From the IMG/VR virus record IMGVR_UViG_3300046009_011724, positions 1 to 33,144 of that record: a DNA stretch of 33,144 bases. One strand, given 5' to 3'. This stretch comes from a virus. The translations under genes and the position numbers were made by a program. A model generated the notes under the pieces. That model had not been told where the DNA came from, searched no databases, and was given only the letters and a program-made list of their open reading frames with translations. How positions within the stretch are numbered: position 1 is the stretch's first letter; every line of letters begins with the position of its first letter. This document shows, in pieces, positions 1 through 23,720 of this stretch.

Positions 1-44
1 GGAGATGCGTAGTTTTTGAGCGAGTAACTTTAGTTAGTTCTAGG

Positions 45-50
45 TTGACA
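45..50 (+). promoter_or_regulatory. TTGACA start-proximal motif
   Basis: TTGACA lies 15 nt before the ATG at 66, and no Shine-Dalgarno sequence is present. It belongs to the recurrent motif series in this genome. A -10 box at normal spacing would fall inside the gene, so an ordinary promoter for this gene is unlikely. Confidence 0.5.
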
Positions 51-65
51 GGTTGGCGGCTACCT

Positions 66-668
66 ATGACCGCCAGCGATTTAGCTAAAGAGTGGGGATG
101 CAGCCGGCAGGCTGTAGCTAAGTGGGTGGCCAAAGGTATGCCATTGAACAGCATGGAGGAGGCCAGCGCATGGAGATCTGCCAATTCCCAGCGCGCCCCC
201 AGGTGCAAAGTTGTCCAAGCAGCCGCGGCCTACACGGATCCGGACGGGCCGGTTAGCCTAGAGGCGTCGGCACCAGGCGAGACGCCGGAGGTGGCGGAGA
301 TCCGGGAGCGATCGAACAGGGCAAAGGTGGCGGAGCGCGAAGCCATGAAGCTGTTGGACCAAGCTAAGGAAGCCAAAGACGTCCATGGCATCCGGCTGGC
401 CTTAGACAAAGTCATCGCCACACAGGAGCGGGCCAGAGATGCGGCCGAGGAGCTTAGCAAGGCGCGGGCGGCGGCCGGGATCATAATGACAGTGACTCAA
501 CACACGCAGACAGTGGAGCGGTTGGCGGCTGAATTTCAGCGCGGCCTAGAGGCGCTGGTCAACAAAGGCAGCCGGCTGGTGGGCAAGAGCGCCCAAGAGA
601 TCCACGAGATCATGCGGGAGGAAACCGGCCGGACTTACGAGGCAATTAAAGCCCGCATGATTGCATGA
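66..668 (+). CDS. Terminase small subunit (Nu1-like)
   Basis: This 200-residue protein probably recognises the packaging site and loads the large terminase. Its N-terminus (about residues 3-26, around SDLAKEWGCSRQAVAKWV) is a winged-helix/HTH of the type found in lambda Nu1. The middle and C-terminus are charged and helical, fitting oligomerisation. The ATG at 66 is preferred over an in-frame TTG at 45 because 45 is part of the TTGACA motif and the HTH begins right after this ATG. Its stop overlaps the large terminase start (ATGA), the standard order for the pair. The family assignment comes from the HTH and position, not from a database hit. Confidence 0.8.
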   Translation: MTASDLAKEWGCSRQAVAKWVAKGMPLNSMEEASAWRSANSQRAPRCKVVQAAAAYTDPDGPVSLEASAPGETPEVAEIRERSNRAKVAEREAMKLLDQAKEAKDVHGIRLALDKVIATQERARDAAEELSKARAAAGIIMTVTQHTQTVERLAAEFQRGLEALVNKGSRLVGKSAQEIHEIMREETGRTYEAIKARMIA

Positions 669-2455
669 CGATCACGTCATCATCATCAGTCCATGGGGTA
701 GGGGCGGCGTTTAAGTTTTTACGCCCTGCCGGGATGGATTCAGTCAGCAAGTGGGCGGAACAAAACATCTGGTTTTCGGAACGGTACAGCCCAAGCAAGC
801 CGGGCAAGGTCAGCCTGGATTCGATGCCCTACCTGCGGGAGGTTCTGGACAGTGCGACAGCTCCCGGGGTGCATGAGCTGACGCTATGTTTTGCCGTGCA
901 GTGCGGAAAAAGCACAGCGCTGCAGCTCATGTTGGCGCACCGACTGACGAACCGAGCCACACCCTGCATGGTGGTACTGCCGTCGCTGAAGCTGGCGCGG
1001 TCCATCAGTGCGGACCGATGGATGGAGCTGGTGCAAAGCAATGCCTGCCTTAGTCGGCTGTGCCCAGATAACGACGACGAGATGAAACTGGACGAGCAGA
1101 GATTTCGATCCGGCACGGTTTGGTGGGTGGGGGCGGGTTCTGAGAGCAATCTTAGTTCACGCAGTGTCGGCATGAGTATAGCCGACGAGATCGACAAGTT
1201 TCCGGACTGGAACACCAAGGAGGCGGCCCCACTGCAGCTGATCGGCGCCCGGATGGAATCTTTTCCTCACTGGCTATATGTCCAGGCAAGCACTCCAACC
1301 GTAGATAGCGGCATTAACATTTGGACAGAATTTCTTCGCGGTGATCAGCGCTACTACATGATCACATGCAACCAATGCCATCACCAGTTCAACTTAGAGT
1401 GGGAGGGCGTGCGCTGGGCGCCAGACGCGTACGACTCGGAAAATAATCTTTGGGATTTTGATAAAATCCGGGCAACTGCTTGCTACGAGTGCCCGGGATG
1501 CCGCAGGCAGATCCCGTTCAGCGAACGAAACGAAATGATGCGCCACGGCAAGTGGAAGCCCACTGCTCATGGCGAACTTGGACGCCGTAGCTATCACCTA
1601 AACGCCCTTTATAGTCCTCACAAAACATGGGGAGAGCTGGCGGTCATGTTTATCCAGGACAAGGAAAGCATTCGCGGGCTGCACCATTTCGTGAACAGCT
1701 ACCTAGCCAAGCCATGGACGCCAAACGCCGCCACGATTAAGCCCACCTTGGTTGAGGACATTATTAAAGCCAGCCCGGAGTATCTGCTTGGTGAAATTCC
1801 TTTGCCCCCGGACGGACTATTTATGTCGATCGACGTGCAGCAGTCAGAGCTTTGGTACGTCATCCGGGCCCACGGTATGCACGCCAATCGCCCATGGTCT
1901 GCCCTGGTGGACTACGGCCAAATCATCGGCTGGGATCTGGCACTAGAAAAGTTTGCCCACAAGTACCACGTCCGCGGCCAGCCGGAGGACGCCCACCAGT
2001 GCCGCGGCGGCTTGGTTGATTCAGGCTACGCCGCCCGCCGGACCGGCGGCGTCTATGAGTTTGTCATCAAATCAAACGGGAAATTTTGGGCCAGCAAAGG
2101 CAGGGCCGGGGTGCCTATGCGCAAAGTGGCCCAACGCCAGATCATCGAGCACCTTGGCCGAAAGCTGATCCTTGCCCAGTACGACGACAACGTCTTTAAA
2201 GAGCGCCTGTACATAAACAAAATTAAAGAGCGCACCGGCGCGGACTGGTGGCTTCCGCGCAACGTCGGCCGCGATTACATCAGCCAGCTAACCAACGAGC
2301 GCCTCACCGAACGCCGCATGAAGTTTGGCCAGCGTGAGCTTGTGTGGGAACGGGTTGGGGCGAACCACTTGGGCGATTGTGAGAAGCTAATTTTAGTGCT
2401 TCTTGAGCACCTGCCCGAGCAGCAGACTAATTCCGACCCTGCCAGCGAAAAGTAG
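665..2455 (+). CDS. Terminase large subunit, GpA family
   Basis: This 596-residue packaging motor and endonuclease has an ATPase half with a Walker A-like AVQCGKS at about 77-83 and a Walker B DEID at 174-177. Two CxxC pairs (C235/C238 and C276/C279, with C273 nearby) could bind zinc, as in other GpA-type terminases. The nuclease half begins near MSIDVQQ, with D390 as a probable metal ligand. A VDSG motif around residue 445 fits the second acidic site. The start is coupled to the small subunit by ATGA. GpA-type terminases usually cut at cos sites, so cos packaging is a reasonable inference. The 3' end overlaps a reverse-strand gene by 29 bp. Confidence 0.93.
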   Translation: MTITSSSSVHGVGAAFKFLRPAGMDSVSKWAEQNIWFSERYSPSKPGKVSLDSMPYLREVLDSATAPGVHELTLCFAVQCGKSTALQLMLAHRLTNRATPCMVVLPSLKLARSISADRWMELVQSNACLSRLCPDNDDEMKLDEQRFRSGTVWWVGAGSESNLSSRSVGMSIADEIDKFPDWNTKEAAPLQLIGARMESFPHWLYVQASTPTVDSGINIWTEFLRGDQRYYMITCNQCHHQFNLEWEGVRWAPDAYDSENNLWDFDKIRATACYECPGCRRQIPFSERNEMMRHGKWKPTAHGELGRRSYHLNALYSPHKTWGELAVMFIQDKESIRGLHHFVNSYLAKPWTPNAATIKPTLVEDIIKASPEYLLGEIPLPPDGLFMSIDVQQSELWYVIRAHGMHANRPWSALVDYGQIIGWDLALEKFAHKYHVRGQPEDAHQCRGGLVDSGYAARRTGGVYEFVIKSNGKFWASKGRAGVPMRKVAQRQIIEHLGRKLILAQYDDNVFKERLYINKIKERTGADWWLPRNVGRDYISQLTNERLTERRMKFGQRELVWERVGANHLGDCEKLILVLLEHLPEQQTNSDPASEK

Positions 2456-2675
2456 TCAGCAACGTCTCTCGCTCCTCACTCGTCAGTTCCTGCCGTTCCA
2501 GCATCTTCACCAGCACAAACAAAATCTGCTTTTGGATGTAAAGCCCCTCCTGCCTTTTGGCCTCCTCGGCCGCCGCCGCCGCCACCACCGCATCGCGCCC
2601 GCGCTTCCAAATAATAAACGCATAGGCCAACACCATCACCGGCAAGGCCAACGATCCTATGGCCATCCAATCCAT
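2427..2675 (-). CDS. Small membrane-anchored protein (moron-like)
   Basis: This 82-residue protein lies on the reverse strand between terminase and connector. It has one N-terminal hydrophobic segment (about residues 3-22, ending AYAFIIWKR) followed by an Ala/Glu/Lys-rich helix, and it ends with a basic tail. A GGAGG lies about 15 nt and an AGG about 9 nt upstream of the ATG. A forward ORF over the same DNA has low-complexity His/Arg/Pro content typical of antisense noise, which favours the reverse gene. The function is unknown. A lone reverse gene in a late operon is typical of a moron expressed in the lysogen, for example in superinfection exclusion. A holin-like or spanin-like role is also possible. 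Confidence 0.55.
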   Translation of the reverse strand: MDWMAIGSLALPVMVLAYAFIIWKRGRDAVVAAAAAEEAKRQEGLYIQKQILFVLVKMLERQELTSEERETLLTTFRWQGRN

Positions 2676-2696
2676 GCAATTAACCTACTTCCTCCG

Positions 2697-2702
2697 TTGA
2701 CA
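2697..2702 (+). promoter_or_regulatory. TTGACA start-proximal motif
   Basis: TTGACA lies 16 nt before the ATG at 2719, with no Shine-Dalgarno sequence between. It is one of the recurrent start-associated copies. Confidence 0.5.
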
Positions 2703-2718
2703 CTGTCCAGTCCCTTCG

Positions 2719-3015
2719 ATGGCCGCCTATACCCGCGAACTAGCGCGGGCTGTTGCCCTGAACGAGCTCAAGCAAGCCTCCGGGGTCACGGCCTCGGCCA
2801 TTGTTGCCTTGGAATCCATGCGCGATTCCGCCATGTCCGGCGTCGATTCCGGGCGTGCCGTGGTGGGCAGCTCCGCCGGCGGCCAGTCCGCCAGCTTTCA
2901 AATCGACATGAAACCCACCGAGCGCGTCACCTTGTTCCAGGCCGCGATTGATTTCCTGCAAGGCAACCGCGTCAGCCGCACCGTCGGCTCTTTCACCAAC
3001 ATCTATGACGCCTAA
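2719..3015 (+). CDS. Head-tail connector, gpW-like position
   Basis: This 98-residue protein lies between the large terminase and portal, exactly where lambda W lies between A and B. It is helical at the N-terminus (ELARAVALNELKQAS) with a Ser/Gly-rich middle, and its C-terminal part (TLFQAAIDFLQGNRV) could form a final helix. gpW stabilises filled heads and gives the tail a docking site. The gene has no Shine-Dalgarno but carries the TTGACA motif 16 nt upstream. Its last 11 nt overlap the portal start. The assignment rests mostly on position and size, because sequence similarity in this family is weak. Confidence 0.5.
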   Translation: MAAYTRELARAVALNELKQASGVTASAIVALESMRDSAMSGVDSGRAVVGSSAGGQSASFQIDMKPTERVTLFQAAIDFLQGNRVSRTVGSFTNIYDA

Positions 3016-4630
3016 GCCCGTCTCCTTGGTTCAGCGGATCGGTGCCGGCGTCAAGGCGTTTGCCGCCGGCTACGGCTCCGGCATCGCCACGTTTCAGCCG
3101 TATGAGGGCGCCGGCTTTTCCCGCAAGCGGCCCATCATCTACGGCGCCCACGCCCGCGACTCCCGCATTGACCTGACCGAATCCACCCGGACCGAGCTCC
3201 TCAAGCTCGCCCGCCACATGTACCGCAACATCGGCCTCGTCAAGGGAGCCGTTGATTCCATCGCCGCCTACTCCATCGGCCCAGGCCTGCGCCCGCAGTA
3301 CCGCGGAGCCGACCAGGAGTTCGGCCAGCTGGCCGAGGCGTACTGGCGCGATGTGATTGCCCCAGCCCCCGAGGTCACCGGCCGCATGACCTGGACGGAT
3401 CTGCTGATGGCGCTTTCCCGCTCCATCGACGTGGACGGAGACGTCTTTGTCGTCCTGACCGATTCCGGAAAACTGCAGGTTGTCGAAGGCCATCGAGTCT
3501 GCGAGGGCGACGACTACGGCACCAGCGACGGCGTCTTCCTCGGCAAGCTCGGCGAGCCCACCGCCTACCTGATCGAGACCAACGACCAGTACCGCAAGAT
3601 CCCCGCCGAGCTCGTCGTCCACCTCATGGAGCTGGAGCGGCCCGACCAGATCCGTGGAGCCTCCGCCTTGGCTCGCGCCCTTAACCACCTGCGCGATCTA
3701 AAGCTGGTTACCGAATTTGAAAAGGACGCCCTCAAGGTTCAGTCCTCCATCGCCGCAGTCATCGTCAGTCAGGATGGCGACCCCCTTGCCAACACAGGTG
3801 GATTTTTTGGAAAGATTCAGGAGCGGGACAGCAGCAACGACGTGGCGCGCGAGGAGATCACCAGCTCCGCCAACATCCCGCGCCTGGCCCCCGGCGAAAA
3901 GATTGAGAACCTTTCCCCCACCCGCCCCGGCACCAACTTTGAAAACTTTGCCAAGTTCCTCATCCGCGACATCGCCCTGGGGCTGAATTTGCCGCCTGAG
4001 TTCGTCTACGATCCAGCTTCTGTCGGCGGGGCCGGCATGCGGTTTGTGGTCGCCAAAGCCCAGCGCCGTTTTGAGCAGCGCCAACGTCTGCTTATCGACC
4101 GCTTCTGCGCCCGCGCCTGGCGTTACTTCATCGCCCGCGCCATCGCCGCCGGCGATCTGCCCGAGGTGGCGGACTACGACCGCGTCTCCTGGCAGACGCC
4201 CAAGAGCCTCACCGTAGACGCCGGACGCGAGGCCATGCAGGCCCGCGAGGACTACAAGGCCGGCCTCTCCACGTTGGCCGATTACTTTGGAGAGCTTGGC
4301 CTCGATTGGCAGGAGCAGATCGAGCAGATGGACCGGGAAAAGAAATTTATCGCCAGCCTGAATCCACCATCCACCGCGCCGGCTGCCGAGGCAACGCCCG
4401 AACAAGCGGCTGTTTTGGACCCCGTGCAGACGCCCGCCGCTCCCGAGGAGCTCGCCGCCTCCGTCACCGAATCCACCGCCATGCAGGCGCAGGTGGAAAT
4501 CATCCCGCCCCAGACCGAAGCCTTCACCATGAAGGACGAGCCGGACTTTACCCTTTCCGAAAAAGAGGCCGACATGGTGGCCAAAGCCATCGGCCTGAAA
4601 AACAGACCCGCCAAAAAGAAGAAGGCGTAG
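3005..4630 (+). CDS. Portal protein, lambda B type
   Basis: This 541-residue protein forms the dodecameric ring through which DNA enters and leaves the head. The segments around SRIDLTESTRTELLKLARHM and YRNIGLVKGAVDSIAAYSIG are typical of lambda-type portals, as is the later LNLPPEFVYDP. The C-terminus is Ala/Pro/Glu-rich and ends in a Lys-rich tail (RPAKKKKA). The ATG at 3005 is chosen because it gives a short overlap with the connector gene. An in-frame upstream start would add about 19 residues without the expected character. The order terminase, connector, portal, protease-scaffold matches lambda A-W-B-C. Confidence 0.9.
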   Translation: MTPKPVSLVQRIGAGVKAFAAGYGSGIATFQPYEGAGFSRKRPIIYGAHARDSRIDLTESTRTELLKLARHMYRNIGLVKGAVDSIAAYSIGPGLRPQYRGADQEFGQLAEAYWRDVIAPAPEVTGRMTWTDLLMALSRSIDVDGDVFVVLTDSGKLQVVEGHRVCEGDDYGTSDGVFLGKLGEPTAYLIETNDQYRKIPAELVVHLMELERPDQIRGASALARALNHLRDLKLVTEFEKDALKVQSSIAAVIVSQDGDPLANTGGFFGKIQERDSSNDVAREEITSSANIPRLAPGEKIENLSPTRPGTNFENFAKFLIRDIALGLNLPPEFVYDPASVGGAGMRFVVAKAQRRFEQRQRLLIDRFCARAWRYFIARAIAAGDLPEVADYDRVSWQTPKSLTVDAGREAMQAREDYKAGLSTLADYFGELGLDWQEQIEQMDREKKFIASLNPPSTAPAAEATPEQAAVLDPVQTPAAPEELAASVTESTAMQAQVEIIPPQTEAFTMKDEPDFTLSEKEADMVAKAIGLKNRPAKKKKA

Positions 4631-4636
4631 TTGACG
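4631..4636 (+). promoter_or_regulatory. TTGACG start-proximal motif (variant)
   Basis: This one-mismatch copy of the TTGACA motif lies directly after the portal stop and 13 nt before the ATG at 4650. That start has no Shine-Dalgarno sequence. Confidence 0.4.
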
Positions 4637-4649
4637 CTGGGCGGCCCGT

Positions 4650-5534
4650 ATGGCCACCAAGCTCAAAAACGTCAGCATCCTCACGGCCGGCGAGGCCAAA
4701 GGTCACAACCTCTTAATCGACGAAACCAGCCTGCAGCAGGCCCTGGCCGTCGCCCAATCCATGGGCCGGATCAAGGTCACCAACGGGCACGGCGCCCAAC
4801 AGGTCATGGACATTCTGGGCTACGTCGAAAACTTCCGCATCGAGGGTAGCCGCCTGCTTGGCGACCTGACCTTGCTCAACAGCGAGAAGGCCGATTACGT
4901 CGCCAACCTCGCCGGGCTTATGCCCGACCAGTTCGGCCTCAGCCTCACCTTTAGCGGCGTGCCCGATGAAAGGGAAGGCCAGCGCTTTGCCCGGGTGACC
5001 GAGATCTACGACGTCTCCGTGGTGACCCAGCCCGCGGCCAATCCCGCCGGCATGTTCAGCGCCTTTGCCGCGCTGCCAGTTGACACCTTTGAAAAGGCCA
5101 TGACCGAAACCAAGGCCGAGAAAGTCGAACTGACCGCCGCCGCTCCGGTGGCCCAACCGGAACCCGAACCCACACCCGCGGCCTTGGCCGAGACGCTCGC
5201 TCCCGCCGCCCTGGCGGAAGCCCCGGTGGCGGAGGACAAAAAGGACGAGGAAAAGGAACCGACGATGCGCGATGTCGTCAACCTCCTCAACCAGCTCCTC
5301 GGCTACATGAAGGACGACAAGGAGGAGGACCTGACCGCCCCCGCCGTCGTCGAGGCCGCCGCCAAGACGGAGCTCACCACCCTTTCACGGATCGAGAAGG
5401 ACGCCGCCGGTGCGGCGCCCGTCCCGGCCCAACCCGCGGACAGCCGTCTGTCCCGCACCGAGATCCTCAACCAATTCAACCAGGAGAAGCACCCCGCCAA
5501 GCGCGTGGAGCTCCTCCGCAAGCTGGGCCTCTAA
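4650..5534 (+). CDS. Prohead protease fused to scaffold domain
   Basis: This 294-residue protein has two clear parts. Residues 1 to about 145 resemble a prohead maturation protease: NGH near residue 47 and GLSLTFSG near residue 100 could provide His and Ser of the active site. From about residue 150 the protein is Ala/Pro/Glu-rich and then helical and charged, as expected for scaffold (MRDVVNLLNQLLGYMKDD and the basic C-terminal helix RVELLRKLGL). This matches the lambda C/Nu3 arrangement. An in-frame ATG at 5100, with its own TTGACA copy, could give a separate scaffold. The protease assignment is by pattern and position. Confidence 0.75.
   Translation: MATKLKNVSILTAGEAKGHNLLIDETSLQQALAVAQSMGRIKVTNGHGAQQVMDILGYVENFRIEGSRLLGDLTLLNSEKADYVANLAGLMPDQFGLSLTFSGVPDEREGQRFARVTEIYDVSVVTQPAANPAGMFSAFAALPVDTFEKAMTETKAEKVELTAAAPVAQPEPEPTPAALAETLAPAALAEAPVAEDKKDEEKEPTMRDVVNLLNQLLGYMKDDKEEDLTAPAVVEAAAKTELTTLSRIEKDAAGAAPVPAQPADSRLSRTEILNQFNQEKHPAKRVELLRKLGL
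5080..5085 (+). promoter_or_regulatory. Internal TTGACA motif before scaffold start
   Basis: TTGACA lies inside the protease-scaffold gene, 14 nt before an in-frame ATG at 5100. The spacing equals that seen before whole genes, and the ATG falls at the boundary between protease and scaffold parts. Confidence 0.45.
5100..5534 (+). CDS. Predicted internal scaffold product (Nu3-like)
   Basis: A second, in-frame start at 5100 would produce the C-terminal 144 residues of the protease-scaffold protein on their own, beginning MTETKAEKVEL. In lambda, Nu3 is made from an internal start within gene C so that scaffold exceeds protease. Here the start is marked by TTGACA at 5080-5085 rather than by a Shine-Dalgarno. 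The product would lack the protease part and keep the Pro/Ala/Glu linker, the helical core and the basic C-terminal helix. This is a prediction from motif spacing and domain boundary. The later in-frame ATG at 5265 is a weaker alternative. Confidence 0.4.
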   Translation: MTETKAEKVELTAAAPVAQPEPEPTPAALAETLAPAALAEAPVAEDKKDEEKEPTMRDVVNLLNQLLGYMKDDKEEDLTAPAVVEAAAKTELTTLSRIEKDAAGAAPVPAQPADSRLSRTEILNQFNQEKHPAKRVELLRKLGL

Positions 5535-5552
5535 AGCCCAAAGGATACCACC

Positions 5553-6443
5553 ATGGCCAACACACTCGGAACCACTAACGCCAATGTGATCGCCCAGCGC
5601 GCGCTGGAGATCCTCGTGGCTGATTACAGCTTTTTGCGTGGCGCCGCCACGGACTTCTCGTCCGAGGCCGCCCGCTACAACGCCTACGTCTACACGCACC
5701 GCCTCTCGGCGCTGACGGCCACGGACTACTCCCAGGCCAACGGCTACGTCGCGGCCGCCGTGACACAGACGGATGTGGGCATCCAACTGGACAAGTTCAA
5801 GCACGTTTCCTACAGCGTGGACGATCAGGAACGGTCGACCAGCGAGATCAACCTGATCGAGCGTTTCGCCGGCGCCGCCGCGCACGCCCTCGGGCTGCAG
5901 ATGGTGGGCGACCTGCTCGCGCTCGTCACCTCCGCTTCGTTCACCAGCGCCATCACCGTCAGCTCCGCCTCGTTCAGCTACGCCTGGGCGGTCTCGGCTG
6001 GTGAGGTGCTCAACAACAACAAGACCCCGTCCAACGACCGCTACGCGGTTCTGGCGCCCAAGTACTTCGGCTCCCTGCTGAAGGACAGCAACGTGGTGGC
6101 CAACCCGCAGATCAGCGGCGACGCCGTCCGCAACGCCGGACTCGGCGCGGTGGCAGGGTTCAACATCAACATGTACCCCTCCATCCCCAGCAACAGCATC
6201 ACGCTCGGCGGCTTCTTTGCCCAGCGCGAGGCGCTGTTGATCGCCTCCCGCGTCCCCGATGTCCCTCAGGGCGTCGAGATTCCGGGCACGATCAGCAACG
6301 TCACCGAGCCCCGCACGGGCCTGACCGTGCAGAGCCGGGAGCACTACGACGTCCAAAAAGGCATCGTCCAGCGCACCCTGGCCCTGATCTACGGCGTGAA
6401 GGCAGGGGAGACCTCCAGCCTCGTTCGGATCAACGGCAGCTAA
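5553..6443 (+). CDS. Major capsid protein (HK97-fold, P22 coat-like)
   Basis: This 296-residue protein follows protease-scaffold and precedes a strong hairpin, the usual place for the most highly expressed head gene. It begins MANTLGTTNANVIAQRALE and has the pattern of P22-like coat proteins: an N-terminal helix, a beta-rich stretch (VGIQLDKFKHVSYSVDDQE) and a long central helix (ERFAGAAAHALGLQMVGDLL). A C-terminal section (REHYDVQKGIVQRTLALIYG) follows. An AAGGA-type ribosome site is present about 8 nt upstream of the ATG. The family is inferred from sequence pattern and gene order. Size and length suit an HK97-fold shell protein without a covalent cross-linking motif that I can identify. 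Confidence 0.85.
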   Translation: MANTLGTTNANVIAQRALEILVADYSFLRGAATDFSSEAARYNAYVYTHRLSALTATDYSQANGYVAAAVTQTDVGIQLDKFKHVSYSVDDQERSTSEINLIERFAGAAAHALGLQMVGDLLALVTSASFTSAITVSSASFSYAWAVSAGEVLNNNKTPSNDRYAVLAPKYFGSLLKDSNVVANPQISGDAVRNAGLGAVAGFNINMYPSIPSNSITLGGFFAQREALLIASRVPDVPQGVEIPGTISNVTEPRTGLTVQSREHYDVQKGIVQRTLALIYGVKAGETSSLVRINGS

Positions 6444-6454
6444 CCTCCTTGGTG

Positions 6455-6496
6455 GGGCGGCGGATTGAGCAATCAGTCCGCCGCCCTTCCTCTTTT
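6455..6496 (+). terminator. Hairpin after major capsid gene (GNRA loop)
   Basis: Positions 6455-6468 pair with 6473-6486 as an uninterrupted 14-bp stem (one U-G pair) closed by a GCAA tetraloop. Pyrimidine-rich sequence ending in TTTT follows. It is a good intrinsic terminator or mRNA 3'-stabilising hairpin that could raise capsid output over downstream genes. Confidence 0.75.
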
Positions 6497-6507
6497 GAGA
6501 TCCTCGC

Positions 6508-6807
6508 ATGTCTGAATTTACCGAGTGCCTGAAAGAAAGCCTCGCCGTCGCTTACGAGCAGTTCGGCACCAGCGCCACCTTTGGATCCACCGCCGTCACC
6601 GGCGTCCTTTCCACCATCACCCGCCGGGAGAATCTTGAGCTCCACGGCTACGATCTGGACTTAAACGCCTCCTTTACCGCCGACAAGTCCGTGATGGCCA
6701 CCGCGCCCACCATCGGCTCCACCGCCCGCATCAATTCCGTCACCTACCGCGTCATCAGCACCGACACCAACGCCGGCTGCTACGTCATCGGCCTGCGCGA
6801 GGGTTAG
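6508..6807 (+). CDS. Head completion / head-tail adaptor candidate
   Basis: This 99-residue protein lies directly after the capsid gene and its hairpin. The N-terminus (MSEFTECLKESLAVAYEQFG) is helical. The rest is beta-rich with many Thr/Ser/Val and ends GCYVIGLREG. Small proteins of this shape after the capsid gene in lambda-like phages are often head-tail joining factors (compare lambda FII). I do not recognise the family from sequence. It is separated by only 5 nt from the accessory glycosyltransferase gene, so it marks the left edge of the inserted cassette. Confidence 0.45.
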   Translation: MSEFTECLKESLAVAYEQFGTSATFGSTAVTGVLSTITRRENLELHGYDLDLNASFTADKSVMATAPTIGSTARINSVTYRVISTDTNAGCYVIGLREG

Positions 6808-6812
6808 GATCC

Positions 6813-8507
6813 ATGCCCCAAGATCCTAAAATCTCCATCTATCTGATTGCCGGCCGGGAGGCCAAGTATATCGGCCGCTGCCTGGATGCGTTTCAGCCCA
6901 TGGCCGATGAGATAGTTGTCTGCATGGCTCGCGGCGGTGCGCCTGATGACGGCACCGAGGAGATCGCAAAGGAGAAGGGCGCCACCATCGTCCACTATCA
7001 AAACGGCCACGGCAAAACCGATTGGCCCCACGTCGATCACTTTGCCGACGCCCGCAACACCGCCCTGGACGCTTGCACCGGGGACGTCGCCATGTGGGTG
7101 GACGCGGACGACCTACCCGCCCCCGGCCTGAAAAACGCCCTGCAAAACGCCGCCAAGGAGCTTTTGAAAAACGACAAGGCCGGCATCTGGGCCGCCGTCT
7201 ACAACGTGACCAATGCGAAGCTGACCCCGATCCGCGAGCGCCTGGTCAAACGCCTGCCCGGGGGCCGCTGGGCCGGCCGCTGGCACTACGCCGTGCACGA
7301 GGCGCTTTTGCCGTTGCCCGGCTACGAGGTGCGGGCCGAGCAGGCCAGCTGGGTGGAGCACCATCCGGAGGGCTACAAAGCAGGCTCTGCCGATCGCAAC
7401 ATCCGCATCCTGCAGGGGGAGCTGGGCGAGGCCGGCAAGTACGCCTACTACCTTCAGCAGGAGCTTTTCCTTTCCGGCAAGCGCGACCAGTCCGCCACCT
7501 GGTCCCACGTCTCCGCCCTGTGGCCCACCCAAGAGCCCACGCTCCGCTACGAGAGCTGGTGCAACTACGGCCAAGCCCTGCCGGACCGGGACCAGCGCAT
7601 GGCCGTTTTTGCCAGGGCCCACCAGTCCAGCCCGTCCCGCCGAGAGGCCCCGTTCTATATGGCTCGGGAAGAAGCCAGCGCCGGCAAGTGGGGCGCCGCC
7701 TACTACCTGCTCAAAAGCGCCATGGTGCTGCCCGATCCCGGCGTCACCCAATGGAACGCCCAGCGGGCCATCTATGATTTTGAGTGCATCGATCTCTACA
7801 TCGCCGCCGCCCGCGCCGTGGGCGACCACGCGGAGGCAGACAAGATTCAAAACCAATGGCGCAAGCTGAAGCCCGTCAAAATCTCCGTCTGCCACGCCAC
7901 CCGCGGCCGCCCGCAGGAGGCCATCAACGCCCGCATCCTTTGGATGAAAAAAGCGGCAGACCCGGCCAGCGTGGAGTGGATCTTCAGCTGCGACGATGAT
8001 GACCCCAAGGCCGATGTCCTCAAGGCATGGGCGCCGCTCAAGGGGAAGGGCGGCTGCATCGCCGCCTGGAACCGGGCGGCCGAGCAGGCCCAGGGAGAGA
8101 TCCTTGTGCAGGGATCCGATGACTGGGATCCGCCGCTCTGGTGGGACAAGATTATTTCCGAACGGATCGGGGACACCACCCGCGAAAGCGTGCTGGCCGT
8201 CAGCGATGGTCACCGCAAGGACCAGCTCCTCTGCATGGCCATCCTCACGCGCAACCGGCTCAAAAAACAAGGCCACTTGTTTGCGCCGGAGTACGACGCC
8301 GCCAGCGGCATTTATTCCGATAACGAGTTCACGTCCAGAGCCTACGCCGACAAGTGCGTCATCGAGGCACGCGACGTCGTCTTCACCCACAACAATCCCA
8401 TGTTCACAGGGCAGAAGGCGGACGAGGAGTTCCTTCGCCACAACTCCGCCACCCACTACGAGACCGGAAAAAAGATTTTTGAGGAGCGCAATCCGTCGGC
8501 TCAATGA
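6813..8507 (+). CDS. Two-domain GT-A glycosyltransferase
   Basis: This 564-residue protein appears to hold two glycosyltransferase (GT2-like) domains. Domain 1 (about 5-175) opens with KISIYLIAGREAKYIGRCLD and contains DEIVVC, then WVDADD near residue 95, a DxD metal/nucleotide-sugar motif. The middle (about 210-350) is helical and TPR-like. Domain 2 (about 352-550) restarts with KISVCHATRGRPQEAINAR and has acidic motifs CDDDD and GSDDWDPP. Both starts have the beta-strand plus R/N pattern of GT2 enzymes. It would transfer sugars from nucleotide donors to an unknown acceptor. It is the first of five coupled accessory genes; its stop overlaps the next start by ATGA. Confidence 0.75.
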   Translation: MPQDPKISIYLIAGREAKYIGRCLDAFQPMADEIVVCMARGGAPDDGTEEIAKEKGATIVHYQNGHGKTDWPHVDHFADARNTALDACTGDVAMWVDADDLPAPGLKNALQNAAKELLKNDKAGIWAAVYNVTNAKLTPIRERLVKRLPGGRWAGRWHYAVHEALLPLPGYEVRAEQASWVEHHPEGYKAGSADRNIRILQGELGEAGKYAYYLQQELFLSGKRDQSATWSHVSALWPTQEPTLRYESWCNYGQALPDRDQRMAVFARAHQSSPSRREAPFYMAREEASAGKWGAAYYLLKSAMVLPDPGVTQWNAQRAIYDFECIDLYIAAARAVGDHAEADKIQNQWRKLKPVKISVCHATRGRPQEAINARILWMKKAADPASVEWIFSCDDDDPKADVLKAWAPLKGKGGCIAAWNRAAEQAQGEILVQGSDDWDPPLWWDKIISERIGDTTRESVLAVSDGHRKDQLLCMAILTRNRLKKQGHLFAPEYDAASGIYSDNEFTSRAYADKCVIEARDVVFTHNNPMFTGQKADEEFLRHNSATHYETGKKIFEERNPSAQ

Positions 8508-9268
8508 TCCACACGCACAACGCCCTGCGGCTGGGCGACAACCTCGTTCAGCTAAACTTCCTGCGCCGCGCCTGCCTGGCTGACCCGGCTCTGGAGGTGA
8601 CCCACTATCACAACCCCCAGCTCTGCCGGTTTGAGGAGATCGACGCCCTGCGGTCCGATATCTCCACACGCCTCCGAATCCGGCCCATCGAGGAGGCCCA
8701 GCCAGGCAGTATCGACAGCTGGCGCAACGCCGGTGGCTGGTGGGAGCGTCACCCGGACCGGCTGAACTTCGCCAAGTTTCATCTGGCTTGGTTCAACGAG
8801 CTGGCCGGCCGGATGGGGATCTCCAACCCGATGCGCACCGTGGATGACTTGCTATTTGATTATCCCACGCTGGACAGCTTCATCCCCATGGCGCCGGAGT
8901 GCGACGTGCTGGTAATCAACTCGCCCGGCCTGTCCGGCCAGTTTCTGAACTACAACCCGGAAGACTTTCGCGACCTTATCGCCCGGCTGGTGCTCAAGGG
9001 TCACCGCGTCCACAGCACCGCGCCCACCGGGCTGTGTCCGCATTTTGAAAACAGGAACGTAACTTTCATCGGCGCGGCATCGGTCAAGGCCAAGGTCATC
9101 GTGGGCACCAGCACCGGCCCCAGCTGGCCGTGCCTAAACGTCCACAACCGGGCCAAGCCCATCATCCTCTGCGCCGATCACGAGCAGGTGCTCCTCACGC
9201 CCGCCAGCCGGATGGCCCGCAGCGTCCACCACGCCATCCACCTTCTGGCCAAGGACGGCTGGCTGTGA
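8504..9268 (+). CDS. GT9/heptosyltransferase-like glycosyltransferase
   Basis: This 254-residue protein resembles GT-B enzymes of the ADP-heptose transferase type. The N-terminal LGDNLVQLNFLRRAC matches the G-D-x-x-x-x-x-x-x-L-R motif that opens GT9 proteins. The C-terminal half has CDVLVINSPGLSGQ and then VIVGTSTGPSWPCLN, which sits where GT9 enzymes place the nucleotide-sugar site. At 254 residues it is shorter than typical heptosyltransferases (about 320-350). It overlaps the preceding glycosyltransferase by ATGA and the next gene by GTGA, so the cassette is translationally coupled. The donor and acceptor cannot be read from the sequence. Confidence 0.65.
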   Translation: MIHTHNALRLGDNLVQLNFLRRACLADPALEVTHYHNPQLCRFEEIDALRSDISTRLRIRPIEEAQPGSIDSWRNAGGWWERHPDRLNFAKFHLAWFNELAGRMGISNPMRTVDDLLFDYPTLDSFIPMAPECDVLVINSPGLSGQFLNYNPEDFRDLIARLVLKGHRVHSTAPTGLCPHFENRNVTFIGAASVKAKVIVGTSTGPSWPCLNVHNRAKPIILCADHEQVLLTPASRMARSVHHAIHLLAKDGWL

Positions 9269-9795
9269 GCGCGTACAGGGAACAGCTCACCCTGGCCATG
9301 GACAATCTGGCCGCCGACAAGGCCGTCCGCTTCATCGGCTACGGCGTGAAGATCGGCGGCCGGGCCCTGGGCACGCTGAAAAACGTGCCGGAGGATCGGC
9401 TGATCGAAACGCCCGTGGCGGAAAACCTGATGGTCGGGCTGGCCACCGGCATGTCGCTGGCCGGCCTGCGGCCGCTCGTCTTCATCGAGCGGATGGATTT
9501 TATCCTCAACGCGCTGGACGCCATCGTGAACCATCTTGGCGCGGCCAGGAAAATCAGCCGCGGGCAGTTCCAGCCCGCCGCCATCCTGCGCGTCGTCGTC
9601 GGCAACCGGCACAAGCCTCTCTACACCGGGCCCACCCACGTGCAGGACTTCACCGAGGCCATCCGGCAGATGGTGGATTTCCCGGTGGTGCGCCTAACCG
9701 GGCCAGAGCAAATCGCGCCCGCTTACTTTGAGGCCCACGAGGCCCTGCACTGCGGCCGCAGCACCATGCTCGTCGAGCACAAGGACATGATCTGA
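9265..9795 (+). CDS. E1-beta / transketolase Pyr-domain protein
   Basis: This 176-residue protein matches the pyrimidine-binding domain of TPP enzymes of the 2-oxoacid dehydrogenase E1-beta/transketolase group. The core run is RLIETPVAENLMVGLATGMS then AGLRPLVFIERMDFILNALD. In E1-beta enzymes the Glu of TPxxE (E53 here) contacts the TPP aminopyrimidine. The ending with GPTHVQDF and VVRLTGPEQ also follows the family. The C-terminal domain (about 120 residues) of normal E1-beta is absent. The GTG at 9265 is chosen because it overlaps the previous stop (GTGA); sequence before it only mirrors the upstream gene. It probably pairs with the protein at 10883. Confidence 0.8.
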   Translation: MSAYREQLTLAMDNLAADKAVRFIGYGVKIGGRALGTLKNVPEDRLIETPVAENLMVGLATGMSLAGLRPLVFIERMDFILNALDAIVNHLGAARKISRGQFQPAAILRVVVGNRHKPLYTGPTHVQDFTEAIRQMVDFPVVRLTGPEQIAPAYFEAHEALHCGRSTMLVEHKDMI

Positions 9796-10886
9796 TGCGC
9801 CAGAACAAGTACAGCGACTACAAGATTTTCAGCTTTCCGGAGAAGGTGGAGAGTTTCCGCACCCGCACGCTTACCGCGCCCGTCTACGTCCGCATCAAGC
9901 CCACCAACCGCTGCAACCACGCCTGCCGCTTTTGCACTTATTCCGACGGCACCACCCGCCCCAAGGACCGGCCGGACCTTCACCTGCAGTCCGCCATGCA
10001 CACCGAGATGAAGGAGCAGGACGTCATGCCCACGTGGAAACTCTTGGAGCTGATGGACGATTTGCGCGAGATGAACGTCCGGGCCGTCACGTTTTCCGGG
10101 GGAGGGGAGCCGCTGTTTCATCCGGCCATCTGCCCGGCCATGACTTCCACCCTGTCCTCCGGCATTGATCTTTCCATCATCACCAACGGCCAGCTGCTGA
10201 CCGGCGAGCGGGCCGAAATTCTTACCCGCGCCAAATGGGTACGCGTGTCCATCGATTACACCAGCGCGGAGCAGATGCACCAGAGCCGGGCCGTGCCGCC
10301 CGCCAGCTTTGAGGCCGTGCTGAAAAACATGCGGCAGTTTGCCTCCGCCAAGACCGCCACGTGCGACTTGGGCGTCAATTTCATCGTCACCCGCTACAAC
10401 TACGAGGGCCTCACCCCGTTTGCCAAAACGCTCAAAGAATGCGGCGTGGAGAATGTGCGCTTCTCGCCCGTCTACGTGCAGGGCTTTAAGGATTATCACA
10501 AGGGCATCGCCGTGCGCGTGCGCGAACAGCTGGCCGAATGCCAGGCGCTGGTGGACGACACCTTTTCCGTCAACAGCACCTACGATCTGGACAGCCCCGG
10601 CAAGAGCCCCGTTCGGCCCTTTCACCGCTGCCTGTACGCCCAAGCTGTCTGCGTGGCCGCAGCCGATCTGAACATCTATGCCTGCCACAACACCGCCTAC
10701 AGCGCCCACGGCCGGATCGCCTCGTTCCAGGACCAGTCATTCCGCCAGGCGTGGTTCAGCCCGGAGGCGCGGGAGTGGCACGCCAAGTTCAACCCCGGCG
10801 TGGCCTGCCTGCACGAATGCGCCAATCACAACAAGGTGGCGCTGTTTGAAAGCCTGGCGTCCGACAGCCACGACGCCTTTGTATGA
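9795..10886 (+). CDS. Radical SAM enzyme with SPASM-like C-terminus
   Basis: This 363-residue protein has the 4Fe-4S cluster motif C40-x3-C44-x2-C47 (RCNHACRFC), which binds S-adenosylmethionine to make a 5'-deoxyadenosyl radical. The SAM-binding FSGGGEPLFH follows at about 100-109. Beyond the barrel are further Cys residues (C279, C286, C297, C338, C342) in a pattern like a SPASM or twitch auxiliary-cluster region. Such enzymes carry out peptide modification, dehydrogenation or epimerisation. The gene sits between the two E1-like subunits with 1-nt and 4-nt overlaps, so all three products are probably made together. The substrate is unknown. Confidence 0.88.
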   Translation: MRQNKYSDYKIFSFPEKVESFRTRTLTAPVYVRIKPTNRCNHACRFCTYSDGTTRPKDRPDLHLQSAMHTEMKEQDVMPTWKLLELMDDLREMNVRAVTFSGGGEPLFHPAICPAMTSTLSSGIDLSIITNGQLLTGERAEILTRAKWVRVSIDYTSAEQMHQSRAVPPASFEAVLKNMRQFASAKTATCDLGVNFIVTRYNYEGLTPFAKTLKECGVENVRFSPVYVQGFKDYHKGIAVRVREQLAECQALVDDTFSVNSTYDLDSPGKSPVRPFHRCLYAQAVCVAAADLNIYACHNTAYSAHGRIASFQDQSFRQAWFSPEAREWHAKFNPGVACLHECANHNKVALFESLASDSHDAFV

Positions 10887-11512
10887 CCGCCCACGACCTT
10901 ATCAGCTTTGAGCTGCGGATCCGCCGCCTATTCAGGGAGGGGAAGCTGCCCTACCTGATCCACCTTTGCGGCGGCAACGAGGTGCAGCTCATCCGGCTGT
11001 TTGCCGAAATCCGCCGGGGAGACTGGGTTTTCTCCACCCACCGGTCCCATTACCACTATCTCCTCCACGGCGGGGATCCGGACACTCTGGAGCAGATGAT
11101 TTGCGAGGGGCGCAGCATGTTTGTCTTTGACCACCGGCTGAATTTCTACAGCTCCAGCGTGCTGGCCGGCACCTGCGGCATCGCCGCCGGGGTGGCCCAC
11201 CGCATCCAGGAGGCCGGCGAGGCCCGCCATGTCTGGTGTTTTGTGGGCGATGGGGCCGAGGACGAGGGCCACTTCTACGAGGCCGTGAACTACGTGGACG
11301 GTAAGGGCCTGCCCTGCACGTTTGTGATTGAGGACAACGACCGCAGCGTGGACACCACCAAAGCCCAGCGGGGCAGGGGACGCATCGGCTGGCCGCCCTG
11401 CGTGCGCCGGTATCATTACGTGCCGGAATACCCCCACGGGGGTGCCGGCCTGAAGGAGATGGTCACCTTTGATCCCTCCATCCGTCCCGTGTGGGATGAC
11501 ATAGCCCGATAA
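10883..11512 (+). CDS. E1-alpha-like TPP-binding subunit
   Basis: This 209-residue protein matches the PP domain of E1-alpha (2-oxoacid dehydrogenase) enzymes. GDGAEDEGHFYEAVNYV starts at residue 122, and EDN at 150-152 closes the Mg-TPP motif that is usually GDG...NN. Before it, SSVLAGTCGIAAGVAHRI parallels the helix preceding the TPP site, and THRSHYHYLLHGG parallels the region around the E1-alpha active-site His. Normal E1-alpha proteins are about 320-400 residues, so this is a trimmed form. It probably forms a heteromer with the Pyr-domain protein at 9265. Which keto acid or ketose it cleaves is not evident. Confidence 0.8.
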   Translation: MTAHDLISFELRIRRLFREGKLPYLIHLCGGNEVQLIRLFAEIRRGDWVFSTHRSHYHYLLHGGDPDTLEQMICEGRSMFVFDHRLNFYSSSVLAGTCGIAAGVAHRIQEAGEARHVWCFVGDGAEDEGHFYEAVNYVDGKGLPCTFVIEDNDRSVDTTKAQRGRGRIGWPPCVRRYHYVPEYPHGGAGLKEMVTFDPSIRPVWDDIAR

Positions 11513-11516
11513 GCCA

Positions 11517-11963
11517 ATGGCCGCCGTCACCATGCTGGATCGTCTGATTGAGGCAGGGCTCAAGGAGCTGCTGTCCGGAGCCGTGACGGGCGTCACCTAT
11601 CACTTGTCCCAGGAGACCATTGAAAAGGATCCGCCCTTTCTGGCCATCCGCGCCACCGTGGCCGCCGAGGTGCCCCGGCCAGGCTCCGGCGTTTTTGAGC
11701 TGCCCGTGGAAATCGTGCTGGCCGAGCGGGCCGACGACACCACCGCCCAGGCGTTCAACACCAAGGCCGCCCAGCTTCTGCAGGCTTTCTATCACGATAC
11801 CTCCACCGTCTCCCGGCTAAACGCCACCACCGCCATCGGTGCCGCCCGCGCCTACCGCTGCGACGTCACCGGCAGCGAGAGCGGCGTGGACGGGGACGAA
11901 AGGCTTTTCACCCGCACCCTGTCCCTGACGGTCATCGCCTATCCCAATTCCACCGGGAGTTGA
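11517..11963 (+). CDS. Tail completion/terminator-like protein
   Basis: This 148-residue protein resumes the structural operon after the accessory cassette. It begins with a helix (MLDRLIEAGLKELLSGAV) followed by alternating beta strands and a central helix (AQAFNTKAAQLLQAFYHD), and it ends in a beta section (TLSLTVIAYP). That layout and the position just before the tail tube gene fit tail terminator or tail completion proteins such as lambda U. The family is not certain from the sequence. It starts 4 nt after the cassette's last stop, so the cassette and tail genes are probably on one transcript. Confidence 0.5.
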   Translation: MAAVTMLDRLIEAGLKELLSGAVTGVTYHLSQETIEKDPPFLAIRATVAAEVPRPGSGVFELPVEIVLAERADDTTAQAFNTKAAQLLQAFYHDTSTVSRLNATTAIGAARAYRCDVTGSESGVDGDERLFTRTLSLTVIAYPNSTGS

Positions 11964-11965
11964 CA
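11960..11965 (+). promoter_or_regulatory. TTGACA start-proximal motif
   Basis: TTGACA overlaps the stop of the tail-completion gene and lies 14 nt before the ATG at 11980. The start has no Shine-Dalgarno sequence. Confidence 0.5.
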
Positions 11966-11979
11966 CTTTTTGGACTGGC

Positions 11980-12327
11980 ATGCCCGCAACCACCATCGGC
12001 CAGACAGGGCTCTCTTTCGGTTTAACCGCGGAGAGCGGAATGCTCGTCCAATCCTTTTCGGAAACCCGCAATGTTGAAAAAGCGGAAGTCCGCAACGCCA
12101 CCGGCGACGTGGTCGGCCTGGCTCTCTACAACCAGACCGATTCGCTTTCCTTCAGCGGAACCATCACCGGCACCTACAGCACCACGGCCGGAGCCGTGCT
12201 GGCCACCCTGGCCAACGCCACCAGCACCGGCGGAAAGATTGTCGTGGATTCCGTGGCCTTCAGCCGTTCCCCGGACGCCTTTGTCACGGTGGACGTGTCC
12301 GCCACCCGCTACCCGAACATGTCCTAA
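11980..12327 (+). CDS. Major tail tube protein candidate
   Basis: This 115-residue, Thr/Ser/Gly/Val-rich beta protein lies between tail completion and chaperone genes, the normal place of the tube gene. It has ESGMLVQSFSETRNVEKAEV, which matches the early strands of small tube proteins, and later LSFSGTITGTYSTTAGAVL. It is shorter than most tube proteins (about 140-250), so it would be a minimal form. The start uses the TTGACA motif. A 6-bp GC hairpin follows the stop. An alternative is a minor tail protein, but no other tube candidate is present in the window. Confidence 0.6.
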   Translation: MPATTIGQTGLSFGLTAESGMLVQSFSETRNVEKAEVRNATGDVVGLALYNQTDSLSFSGTITGTYSTTAGAVLATLANATSTGGKIVVDSVAFSRSPDAFVTVDVSATRYPNMS

Positions 12328-12329
12328 AG

Positions 12330-12346
12330 GGCCGCGCCCTGCGGCC
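12330..12346 (+). other. Short GC hairpin after tail tube gene
   Basis: GGCCGC (12330-12335) pairs with GCGGCC (12341-12346) around a 5-nt loop, 3 nt after the tube gene stop. No T-run follows, so it is more likely an mRNA-stabilising hairpin or chance than a terminator. Confidence 0.3.
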
Positions 12347-12362
12347 TCCATGAGATCCTAAC

Positions 12363-12734
12363 ATGTTCGACAGCTTCTGGGGCACCACCAACCTGAAGAC
12401 CGCCGCCATGGCTCCCAATGACGGGGCCGTACTGCGTCCCTACGATCCCGTCACCTGCACCGTCAGCGAGGACGGCCGCCGCCAGTACACTTTCTGGTTT
12501 TCCGGGGGAGGGGAGACCGTACGGGCCGAGATGCAGCGCACCTGGACCGAGATGCAGTGCGATCCGGAAAGCTGGATCCGCTACGCCCGCGCCGCCCTGG
12601 AGAACCGCGAAACCCTGCTGGGACTGATGAAGCGGGCCGAGCCCATCACCGTCATCCAGCGCGGGGGACAGACCCTGCTGGTGCCCGAGCGCGCCAAGCC
12701 CGAGATCAAAAAAGCCCTGCTCCACAAGCTATGA
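12363..12734 (+). CDS. Tail assembly protein, unknown family
   Basis: This 123-residue protein lies between the tube gene and the putative chaperone. The first half is mixed (FWGTTNLKTAAMAPNDGAV) with a beta stretch around RRQYTFWFSGGGE. The second half is helical (ESWIRYARAALENRETLLG and a basic C-terminal helix ending KKALLHKL). I do not recognise the family. Its placement and helical C-terminus suggest a tail assembly or chaperone role. The start lacks a good Shine-Dalgarno; a GAGATCCT precedes it, as it also does the gene at 6508. Its stop overlaps the next gene by ATGA. Confidence 0.55.
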   Translation: MFDSFWGTTNLKTAAMAPNDGAVLRPYDPVTCTVSEDGRRQYTFWFSGGGETVRAEMQRTWTEMQCDPESWIRYARAALENRETLLGLMKRAEPITVIQRGGQTLLVPERAKPEIKKALLHKL

Positions 12735-13320: not shown

Positions 13321-13323
13321 TTT

Positions 13324-14190
13324 ATGGGACTCGTCGTCGATGCCAGCAAGCTGGGGCGCGCACTGCAGGCGTTTGTCGGCCAAACGCGCCTGCAGGCCGC
13401 CCAGGAGATGCGGATTCAGGCCCGCAACCTCGCGGTGCGGCTGGCCAACGCCACCCAGCCCTTCGGCGAATCGGAGGCCGTCCGCCAGAAATCTGAAAAA
13501 AAGATCCGCACGGAGATCGGACGCGTCTACATGCCCACGTGGCTGGCCAGCTCCATCATTTCCCGCTCCGGCAAATCCGCCGGACGCAGCCCCACCCAGA
13601 CGCCGCAGCAGGCCGCCCGAGCTTTCTCCTCCCTCGTGCTCAACGCCGGCCGGTCCACGGGGAAAAGAAAATACCGCGGCCTGGCGGATGCCGACATGCT
13701 CCTGCACCGCCTGCAGGTCAAGCCGCTCATCGGCAGCCTGGTCAGCCGGTTTGACGACGGCGACGCCCACCGCCGCGCCCGCTACGGAAAAAACCAGCGT
13801 GTCCCCAAAAACCAGTACGTGCGCCTGATCCCCACCAATCCGCAGGCCATGGAAAAGTACATCCGCCGCCGGCAGGATAATGTCGGCGTGGCCAAGTCCG
13901 GCTGGGCCGTGGCCGCCGACAAAATCAGCCAGCTGGGAGGAATCAAAGCCGGCATGCGCGGAATCCCGCCGTGGGTGCGCCGTCACGCCAAAAGGTATCA
14001 GACCGGCGAGGCCGCCGATTATGCCGATGCCAAGGACAAGCCTTTCGTGGAATTGCGCAACACCGTTCGCTACATCCTTCAGGTCATCAGCCCGGACACC
14101 ATTCGCAAAACCATTGACATTCAGATCCTCGCCATGATCAAACGCCTGGGCATCATCGCCGCCGCCGAGGCCAAAAAAGCGGGATTGTAG
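13324..14190 (+). CDS. Minor tail protein, unknown family
   Basis: This 288-residue basic protein lies between the chaperone and the tape measure-like gene. The N-terminus is helical (GLVVDASKLGRALQAF then AAQEMRIQARNLAVRLANAT). The centre is rich in Arg, Ser and Gln. The C-terminus is a long helix (TIRKTIDIQILAMIKRLGII) ending AAEAKKAGL. The opening resembles the N-terminal helices of HK97 gp10-like tail or neck proteins, but it is about twice as long. I cannot assign a firm family. A TTGACA plus ATG occurs near the 3' end but would make only 18 residues and is treated as chance. Confidence 0.6.
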   Translation: MGLVVDASKLGRALQAFVGQTRLQAAQEMRIQARNLAVRLANATQPFGESEAVRQKSEKKIRTEIGRVYMPTWLASSIISRSGKSAGRSPTQTPQQAARAFSSLVLNAGRSTGKRKYRGLADADMLLHRLQVKPLIGSLVSRFDDGDAHRRARYGKNQRVPKNQYVRLIPTNPQAMEKYIRRRQDNVGVAKSGWAVAADKISQLGGIKAGMRGIPPWVRRHAKRYQTGEAADYADAKDKPFVELRNTVRYILQVISPDTIRKTIDIQILAMIKRLGIIAAAEAKKAGL

Positions 14191-15636: not shown

Positions 15637-15638
15637 CC

Positions 15639-19147: not shown

Positions 19148-19153
19148 TTGACA
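19148..19153 (+). promoter_or_regulatory. TTGACA start-proximal motif
   Basis: TTGACA lies 14 nt before the GTG at 19168. It is 14 nt from the reverse-strand copy, back to back in a 55-nt divergent intergenic region. Confidence 0.5.
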
Positions 19154-22257: not shown

Positions 22258-22263
22258 TTGACA
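22258..22263 (+). promoter_or_regulatory. TTGACA start-proximal motif
   Basis: TTGACA lies 13 nt before the ATG at 22277 of the small holin-like gene. No Shine-Dalgarno is present. Confidence 0.5.
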
Positions 22264-23714: not shown

Positions 23715-23720
23715 TTGACA
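23715..23720 (+). promoter_or_regulatory. TTGACA start-proximal motif
   Basis: TTGACA lies 14 nt before the GTG at 23735 of the phosphoesterase gene, which has no Shine-Dalgarno sequence. Confidence 0.5.

Follow-up and report, generated by a model that had tools for sequence, protein, structure and literature searches.

A TTGACA word before start codons in a family of uncultured phages, with a proposed internal scaffold start in the protease gene

Overview

A six-letter word, TTGACA, stands at a narrowly bounded distance before start codons in an uncultured virus and its relatives, and one copy lies inside the head-protease gene where a putative scaffold protein begins. The window analysed here is the whole 33,144-nucleotide stretch of the virus record IMGVR_UViG_3300046009_011724. 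At 5080-5085 of the + strand TTGACA is followed, after a gap of 14 nt, by an in-frame ATG at 5100-5102, and this part of the original prediction, which had been made from the letters of the window, held. Its two wider ideas, that TTGACA marks gene starts and that this copy starts a scaffold, are supported; the separate scaffold polypeptide remains an inference, with no protein or RNA data behind it. There is little doubt that the TTGACA motif is a real functional signal, and ATG 5100 is likely to be a real scaffold start, the latter being inferred from sequence alone. The explanation as a whole, a family-wide gene-start signal together with an internal scaffold unit, is favoured by a modest margin. 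If it is right, gene starts across a large set of uncultured freshwater phages, among them starts that lie within other genes and escape gene finders, could be read off from six letters, and a kind of gene-start signal distinct from known promoters and from Shine-Dalgarno sites could be cleanly tested.

Genome and host context

The window encodes a terminase large subunit, a lambda-type portal and a P22-like coat protein (portal, phrog_21, E 2e-57; coat, phrog_283, E 3e-30; profile matches to head proteases were weak), and its genes run in the order terminase, small gene, portal, protease-scaffold ORF, coat (Table 1). The closest cultured relative is Verrucomicrobia phage P8625 (coat 31% identity). 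A terminase-based search of genome contigs gave five loci, including a phage contig within a Verrucomicrobia metagenome-assembled genome (MAG), and a coat-based search of genome contigs gave no match. Because of the P8625 relationship and the related phage contig inside the MAG, a verrucomicrobial host is likely, but it has not been shown.

Several features of the wider genome were observed in passing. Glycosyltransferase, transketolase-like and radical-SAM genes lie at 6813-10886, after the coat gene and ahead of the later (tail-region) genes. The GC skew flips sign near 22 kb (20000-24000), where GC content also dips, though the likely genes remain on the + strand. The packaging module is mosaic: the terminase (window 665-2455) is only about 30% identical in several relatives (L047, L043 and others) that share the coat and protease, and about 30% identical between lineages whose coats are 76-85% identical.

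Table 1. Positions of the motif copies and of the features discussed in the window
Feature	Position	Strand	Remarks
TTGACA	45..50	+	15 nt before ATG 66, terminase small subunit
TTGACA	2697..2702	+	16 nt before ATG 2719; small gpW-position gene, between those for terminase and portal
One-mismatch motif TTGACG	4631..4636	+	13 nt before protease ATG
Full protease-scaffold ORF, 294 aa	4650..5534	+	between portal and coat genes
Protease domain, residues 1-130	4650..5039	+	T4 gp21 / herpesvirus assemblin fold, from fold model
Internal TTGACA in protease ORF	5080..5085	+	codons GTT GAC ACC, Val144-Asp145-Thr146
Proposed scaffold start codon	5100..5102	+	in-frame internal ATG, codon 151, 150 codons into the ORF
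Proposed separate scaffold protein, 144 aa	5100..5534	+	begins MTETKAEKVEL; model of low confidence outside helices
Major capsid protein, P22-coat-like	5553..6443	+	downstream partner of scaffold
Intrinsic-terminator-like hairpin, strong	6454..6487	+	GC stem and T-rich tail directly 3' of coat gene; would close the scaffold-coat unit
TTGACA	11960..11965	+	14 nt before ATG 11980; TGA stop of the upstream ORF inside the motif
Internal in-frame TTGACA	14114..14119	+	14 nt before ATG 14134, near 3' end of ORF 13324-14190
TTGACA	19148..19153	+	14 nt before GTG 19168
TTGACA	22258..22263	+	13 nt before ATG 22277 (54-aa ORF)
TTGACA	23715..23720	+	14 nt before GTG 23735 (metallophosphoesterase)

Placement of TTGACA before start codons

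TTGACA is no more frequent in the window than expected: the two strands together hold 10 copies, shuffled sequences hold 11.3 +/- 3.6, and 71 of 100 shuffles have 10 or more. The count alone is thus at chance level and shows no enrichment; the placement of the copies before starts is not due to chance. An ATG or GTG lies 13-16 nt downstream of all eight sense-strand copies (background 0.117, P = 3.6e-8), and TTGACA ranks first among 2391 hexamers of the window for start-codon placement. The runner-up, TGACAC (P = 1.6e-4), overlaps TTGACA, and the best hexamer of the other strand reaches 4e-4. Besides the copy at 5080, six sense copies precede ORF starts (66, 2719, 11980, 19168, 22277 and 23735) and a seventh precedes an internal methionine at 14134. 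The claim that the same spacing precedes full genes therefore held only in part, since the spacing is 13-16 nt rather than exactly 14 and the codon at 14134 does not begin a full gene.

Two further sequence features were seen near starts. An inverted repeat, TGTCAA-N14-TTGACA, occupies 19128-19153 and includes one of the only two antisense copies in the window. A GAGATCCT/AGATCC-like word stands just before several starts (6508, 12363, 14134) and could pair with the GGATC adjoining the 16S anti-Shine-Dalgarno.

The same placement is found throughout the family. In the window and 80 relatives (81 sequences, 909 kb) TTGACA occurs 255 times in the sense and 17 times in the antisense orientation, and 231 of the 255 sense copies have an ATG 13-16 nt downstream. 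Since relatives share descent, non-redundant sites were used as well, and across this family and a second subfamily (coat 48% identical) 68 of 75 such sites have ATG or GTG at 13-17 nt. The genes preceded by the motif are unrelated and include those for the terminase small subunit, the gpW-position protein, the protease and the scaffold, a tail-region gene of the 11980 type, and others. An alignment of 59 non-redundant sites shows TTGACA, a preference for C or T as the next base, a start codon at 12-17 nt and a purine at base 7 in 43 of the 59; beyond TTGACAY and the start codon it has no further strongly conserved columns, and the purine excess is modest and was found post hoc.

Antisense copies are scarce in the same genomes. 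Under synonymous shuffles the window family has 7 against 43 expected (rank 7 of 4049 hexamers) and the second subfamily has 0 against 7.1 expected, no antisense copy being present in its 203 kb. There is no such depletion in the P8625 clade (31 against 32.6 expected) or in two Verrucomicrobia genomes (37 against 32). The near-cognates TTGACC, TTGACG and TTGACT are depleted on the sense strand only in the window family, again under synonymous shuffles. As a separate observation, the coding DNA of the relatives (L002-L081) avoids palindromes (TTCGAA, CAATTG, GTTAAC, CATATG, CGCGCG) and GGACC/GGTCC words in such shuffles, which may point to restriction pressure.

Conservation of the internal sites

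The site within the protease gene is almost invariant. In-frame GTT-GAC-A with an ATG at +14 or +17 is present in 86 of 87 distinct protease genes (+14 in 78, +17 in 8, none in 1). The exception, L005, is likely an assembly chimera, retained in the counts nonetheless; the upstream half of its positions 1-1100 resembles, as read from the translation, an unrelated bacterial protein fused to the scaffold. In the first set of 81 sequences, 17 were left out because the upstream DNA was too short, and in 63 of the 64 usable ones GTT GAC A is in frame and is followed by ATG at +14 or +17. When a protease-based search was added, TTGACA was found in the same phase in all 136 full-length protease ORFs from 156 sequences; the other 20 have no full-length protease ORF, and the 156 count many contigs twice, the distinct genes numbering 87.

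This conservation is shown at the level of codons. The motif valine is GTT in 86 of 86 genes and the aspartate GAC in 87 of 87, whereas GTT makes up 576 of the 2081 valine codons in these genes. Parsimony on the gene tree gives no synonymous change at Val144 or Asp145, against 3-19 changes at 12 other valine columns and 6-18 at seven other aspartate columns. Synonymous change is low from the motif until a few codons after the ATG, and the columns upstream vary freely. Variation is low again close to the 3' end of the scaffold; the large clade has mostly two codon states in this stretch, and the low divergence there may reflect recombination. That caution applies weakly to the motif as well, yet the motif is also kept in divergent clades. 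The outcome named in advance as refuting, a synonymous disappearance of TTGACA from close relatives whose scaffold is intact, was seen neither in the 86 non-chimeric distinct genes nor in 23 loci of the second subfamily.

All 23 loci of the second subfamily have the internal motif, followed by ATG or GTG at +14 or +17, although the flanking residues differ. Two natural recombinants combine the subfamilies. In both L143 and L257 the protease part is 80% identical to that of the window and about 40% to that of the second subfamily, and the scaffold part is 69-92% (L143) or 71-79% (L257) identical to second-subfamily members and only 28-40% to the window; the coat of L143 also falls in the second subfamily. 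Because the protease part is window-like and the scaffold part belongs with the second subfamily, with the split at the motif, the exchange falls at the internal start, and in L143 the scaffold travels with the coat.

A second internal site, at 14114, behaves differently with respect to its start codon. All 39 distinct genes share the codons ATT/CTT-GAC there, and 10 of the 39 keep TTGACA without a start codon at +14, the site being ATG-less in one clade. The motif is therefore not a pure mark of start codons. In the window an 18-codon in-frame stretch follows the site to 14190 and ends just before the next gene (14197).

In the sister clade, that of P8625, the word is placed at a different distance. 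Of its 122 non-redundant sites, 26 have spacings of 28-31 nt, against 7.75 in each 4-nt bin at other distances, and the sites have an A/T-rich stretch at -13 to -9 (the -10 region). In six members (L225-L229 and L230) an internal TTGACA precedes, by 29 nt, an ATG where the scaffold would begin; in L225 and L230, the only two for which the reading frame was checked, the TTGACA and ATG are in frame within one ORF and open a coiled-coil-like product of about 150-158 residues. The hidden scaffold site in each clade thus obeys the gene-start spacing of that clade. The device is not universal, as TTGACA is missing from the 1000 nt upstream of the coat gene in L235, L236 and P8625 itself.

Protease, scaffold and downstream hairpin

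A fold model built from 31 sequences is confident for residues 1-130 and mostly disordered for 131-203, with a helix and a C-terminal helical pair thereafter. The scaffold part is accordingly predicted by the model to comprise a disordered Glu/Pro/Ala-rich stretch, a helix and a two-helix C-terminal end. The best match of the protease model (residues 1-132) in a structure search is the T4 prohead protease gp21 (5jbl_B, Z 10.9, 125 residues, 3.3 A), and herpesvirus assemblins also match (Z up to 7.5). The ClpP/S49 type is absent from the list of fold matches, which excludes nothing. His47 and Ser98 are invariant in the 31 sequences, though a catalytic role for them has not been shown. Neither Pfam nor a PDB sequence search returned a match for the protease, and the scaffold alone gave no meaningful hit in a structure search, as expected because the protein is mostly disordered.

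The motif occupies codons 144-146, past the confident protease fold, and the claim that the internal start falls exactly where the protease part ends accordingly held. A strong terminator-like hairpin is present at 6454-6487, after the coat gene. Similar hairpins with differing stem sequences lie 3' of the coat gene in 10 of the first 14 distinct loci, the scan having taken in only those 14 of 22 non-redundant loci. The presence of the conserved hairpin is shown. Because it follows the coat gene in the window and in relatives, scaffold and coat look like one transcription unit, which is an inference from sequence alone.

A proposed gene-start signal and how it may be read

In the best explanation, TTGACA(C/T) 13-17 nt before ATG or GTG would be a family-specific gene-start signal, and the copy at 5080 would open a second reading unit inside the protease gene. 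Starting at ATG 5100, this unit would yield a separate 144-residue scaffold, more abundant than the protease-scaffold fusion and made together with the coat protein, and would end at the putative terminator at 6454-6487. The motif would act on DNA, as a one-box, short-leader promoter read by the host polymerase and an unidentified phage factor; the mRNA would start about 7 nt after the motif and have a leader of 6-10 nt. The existence of the short protein, its relative amount and the manner in which the motif is read are inferred only.

Reading at the level of DNA, held to be slightly more likely than not, is preferred to a ribosome-recruiting word, because antisense copies have been purged and because the second internal site retains TTGACA even in genes with no start codon there. 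The purine at base 7 and the terminator hairpin after the coat gene were also counted in its favour. Against it, the sites have neither a -10 box nor a -35 partner, and nothing apart from TTGACAY and the start codon is conserved as an element, an unusual state for a promoter. The distance to the start codon also varies little (12-17 nt), as it does for translation signals, and TTGACC/G/T are depleted in the sense orientation alone, the pattern to be expected of an RNA-level signal. Restriction avoidance might also account for part of the antisense loss, since palindromic sites are depleted in these genomes as well.

Two candidate readers of the motif were rejected, as the helix-turn-helix protein at 27579-28046 had no match in 11 records and the small helix-turn-helix protein at 28043-28306 occurs in only 7 of 10 family members searched and not in P8625. 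A host-wide motif was likewise rejected, TTGACA being present at -25 to -12 in 0 of 101 and 0 of 150 gene starts of two Verrucomicrobia genomes. Whole-genome pattern counts in three MAGs were 17, 104 and 34, against 8, 40 and 18 for a reversed control, an excess that may be due to composition. Separately, two Verrucomicrobia genomes (L186-L205) show little Shine-Dalgarno excess at roughly called gene starts (13 of 101 against 8 in the control, and 21 of 150 against 10).

Alternative explanations

The closest rival operates on RNA: UUGACA in the mRNA would recruit the ribosome, through a host or phage factor and without a Shine-Dalgarno sequence, to a start 13-17 nt downstream, and the scaffold would be made by internal initiation of translation on the protease mRNA. 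It is rated clearly below the DNA-level reading. In its support are the tight 12-17 nt spacing to ATG or GTG in the 59 non-redundant sites, the exchange of ATG and GTG at the same place in the second subfamily, the lack of a second DNA box in the aligned sites, the depletion of TTGACC/G/T on the sense strand alone, and the synonymous constraint that spans the motif to just after the ATG. Against it stand the purging of antisense copies, which an RNA signal does not need, the 10 of 39 distinct genes that keep the second internal TTGACA without a start codon, and the two Verrucomicrobia genomes that lack the motif at their own gene starts. Direct Shine-Dalgarno pairing of UUGACA with the 16S tail was rejected, since 12 genomes of one candidate host order all have standard tails that lack TGTCAA; this finding also counts against the rival as a whole, though the host is not established. 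A bolder version holds that the family bypasses both sigma-70 promoters and Shine-Dalgarno sites, with UUGACA about 14 nt before AUG recruiting the ribosome through a dedicated factor; it too is judged rather less probable than its negation. Were it true, UUGACA copies, even inside other genes, would create new protein products.

Ordinary sigma-70 promoters, in which TTGACA is the -35 box and transcripts start about 30 nt downstream, are an unlikely explanation for the window family. They would fit the P8625 clade, where TTGACA lies 28-31 nt before ATG with an A/T-rich -10 region, as in leaderless sigma-70 promoters, and where some members use TTGACA at the scaffold start. In the window family, however, the start point would fall 13-17 nt inside the gene, the aligned sites have no -10 hexamer 16-18 nt after TTGACA, and window positions 1-16500 contain 0 promoter-like pairs against 2.4 in shuffles. 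The possibility that protein constraint on Val-Asp, together with chance, explains the internal TTGACA is virtually ruled out. Val-Asp is indeed conserved at the site in the family, but its codons are uniform where codons elsewhere in the same genes are mixed, the motif is kept in the second subfamily despite differing flanking residues, and the same word precedes unrelated genes. The codon test refutes this reading unless unrecognised recombination has homogenised just these codons in all lineages. Finally, TTGACA might be kept because it links exchangeable gene modules in recombination, and not for any role in expression. The breakpoints of natural recombinants do fall at the motif, and the genomes are mosaic in the terminase and coat identities given above, but recombination needs neither the fixed spacing to the start codon nor the strict orientation (255 sense, 17 antisense), and this account is very improbable.

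Comparison with known systems

The nested scaffold arrangement is already known from lambda and Mu, while the TTGACAY signal appears undescribed in the literature searched: no description of a comparable TTGACA start motif was found in the open-licence PMC literature, and the P8625 genome paper does not mention promoter, start codon or Shine. In lambda, C/Nu3 is a protease gene with a nested scaffold gene that begins at an in-frame internal start, and the interactions of C, Nu3, B and E have been described (PMC3224144). The lambda C protease is of the ClpP/S49 type. The window resembles lambda in gene order and in that the scaffold, translated from an in-frame internal start, would correspond to the C-terminal portion of the protease ORF. 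It differs in its T4 gp21/assemblin-fold protease, P22-like coat, TTGACA-marked start and lack of a Shine-Dalgarno sequence. The likeness to lambda C/Nu3 that had been proposed thus holds for the arrangement only, the protease model best matching the gp21/assemblin fold. Mu and Mu-like phages also have an in-frame scaffold start in the protease gene, with a Shine-Dalgarno sequence 8-9 nt upstream (PMC4378225); by contrast none (GGAG, GAGG or AGGA) was read by eye in the window at 5086-5099. The features of a nested scaffold that are met here are a single ORF with an N-terminal protease and a C-terminal scaffold, and a conserved in-frame start at the domain border.

The Start-Associated Sequences of Cluster K mycobacteriophages are short oriented repeats that precede many starts and are nearly absent from the host (PMC3203893). 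They resemble the present motif as a short oriented word repeated before many start codons of one phage group. They differ in being 13 bp long (5'-GGGATAGGAGCCC), in lying 3-7 bp from the start and in containing a Shine-Dalgarno core, whereas TTGACAY lies at 12-17 nt and no 16S pairing was found for it. In Shigella virF a protein shortened at its N terminus, VirF21, is made from a leaderless mRNA whose promoter lies within the gene (PMC5101355), but this concerns one bacterial regulator gene and its internal promoter, not a start signal used across a genome.

In P8625 and its relatives TTGACA likewise precedes several homologous genes, and the scaffold start of some of these phages is also marked by an internal TTGACA-ATG. 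That clade differs in its 28-31 nt spacing, its A/T-rich -10 region of the leaderless sigma-70 type and its lack of antisense depletion, and the P8625 protease is annotated as ClpP-like, unlike the gp21/assemblin-fold protease of the window. A sister clade that uses the same word at twice the distance provides a natural comparison for how such signals change.
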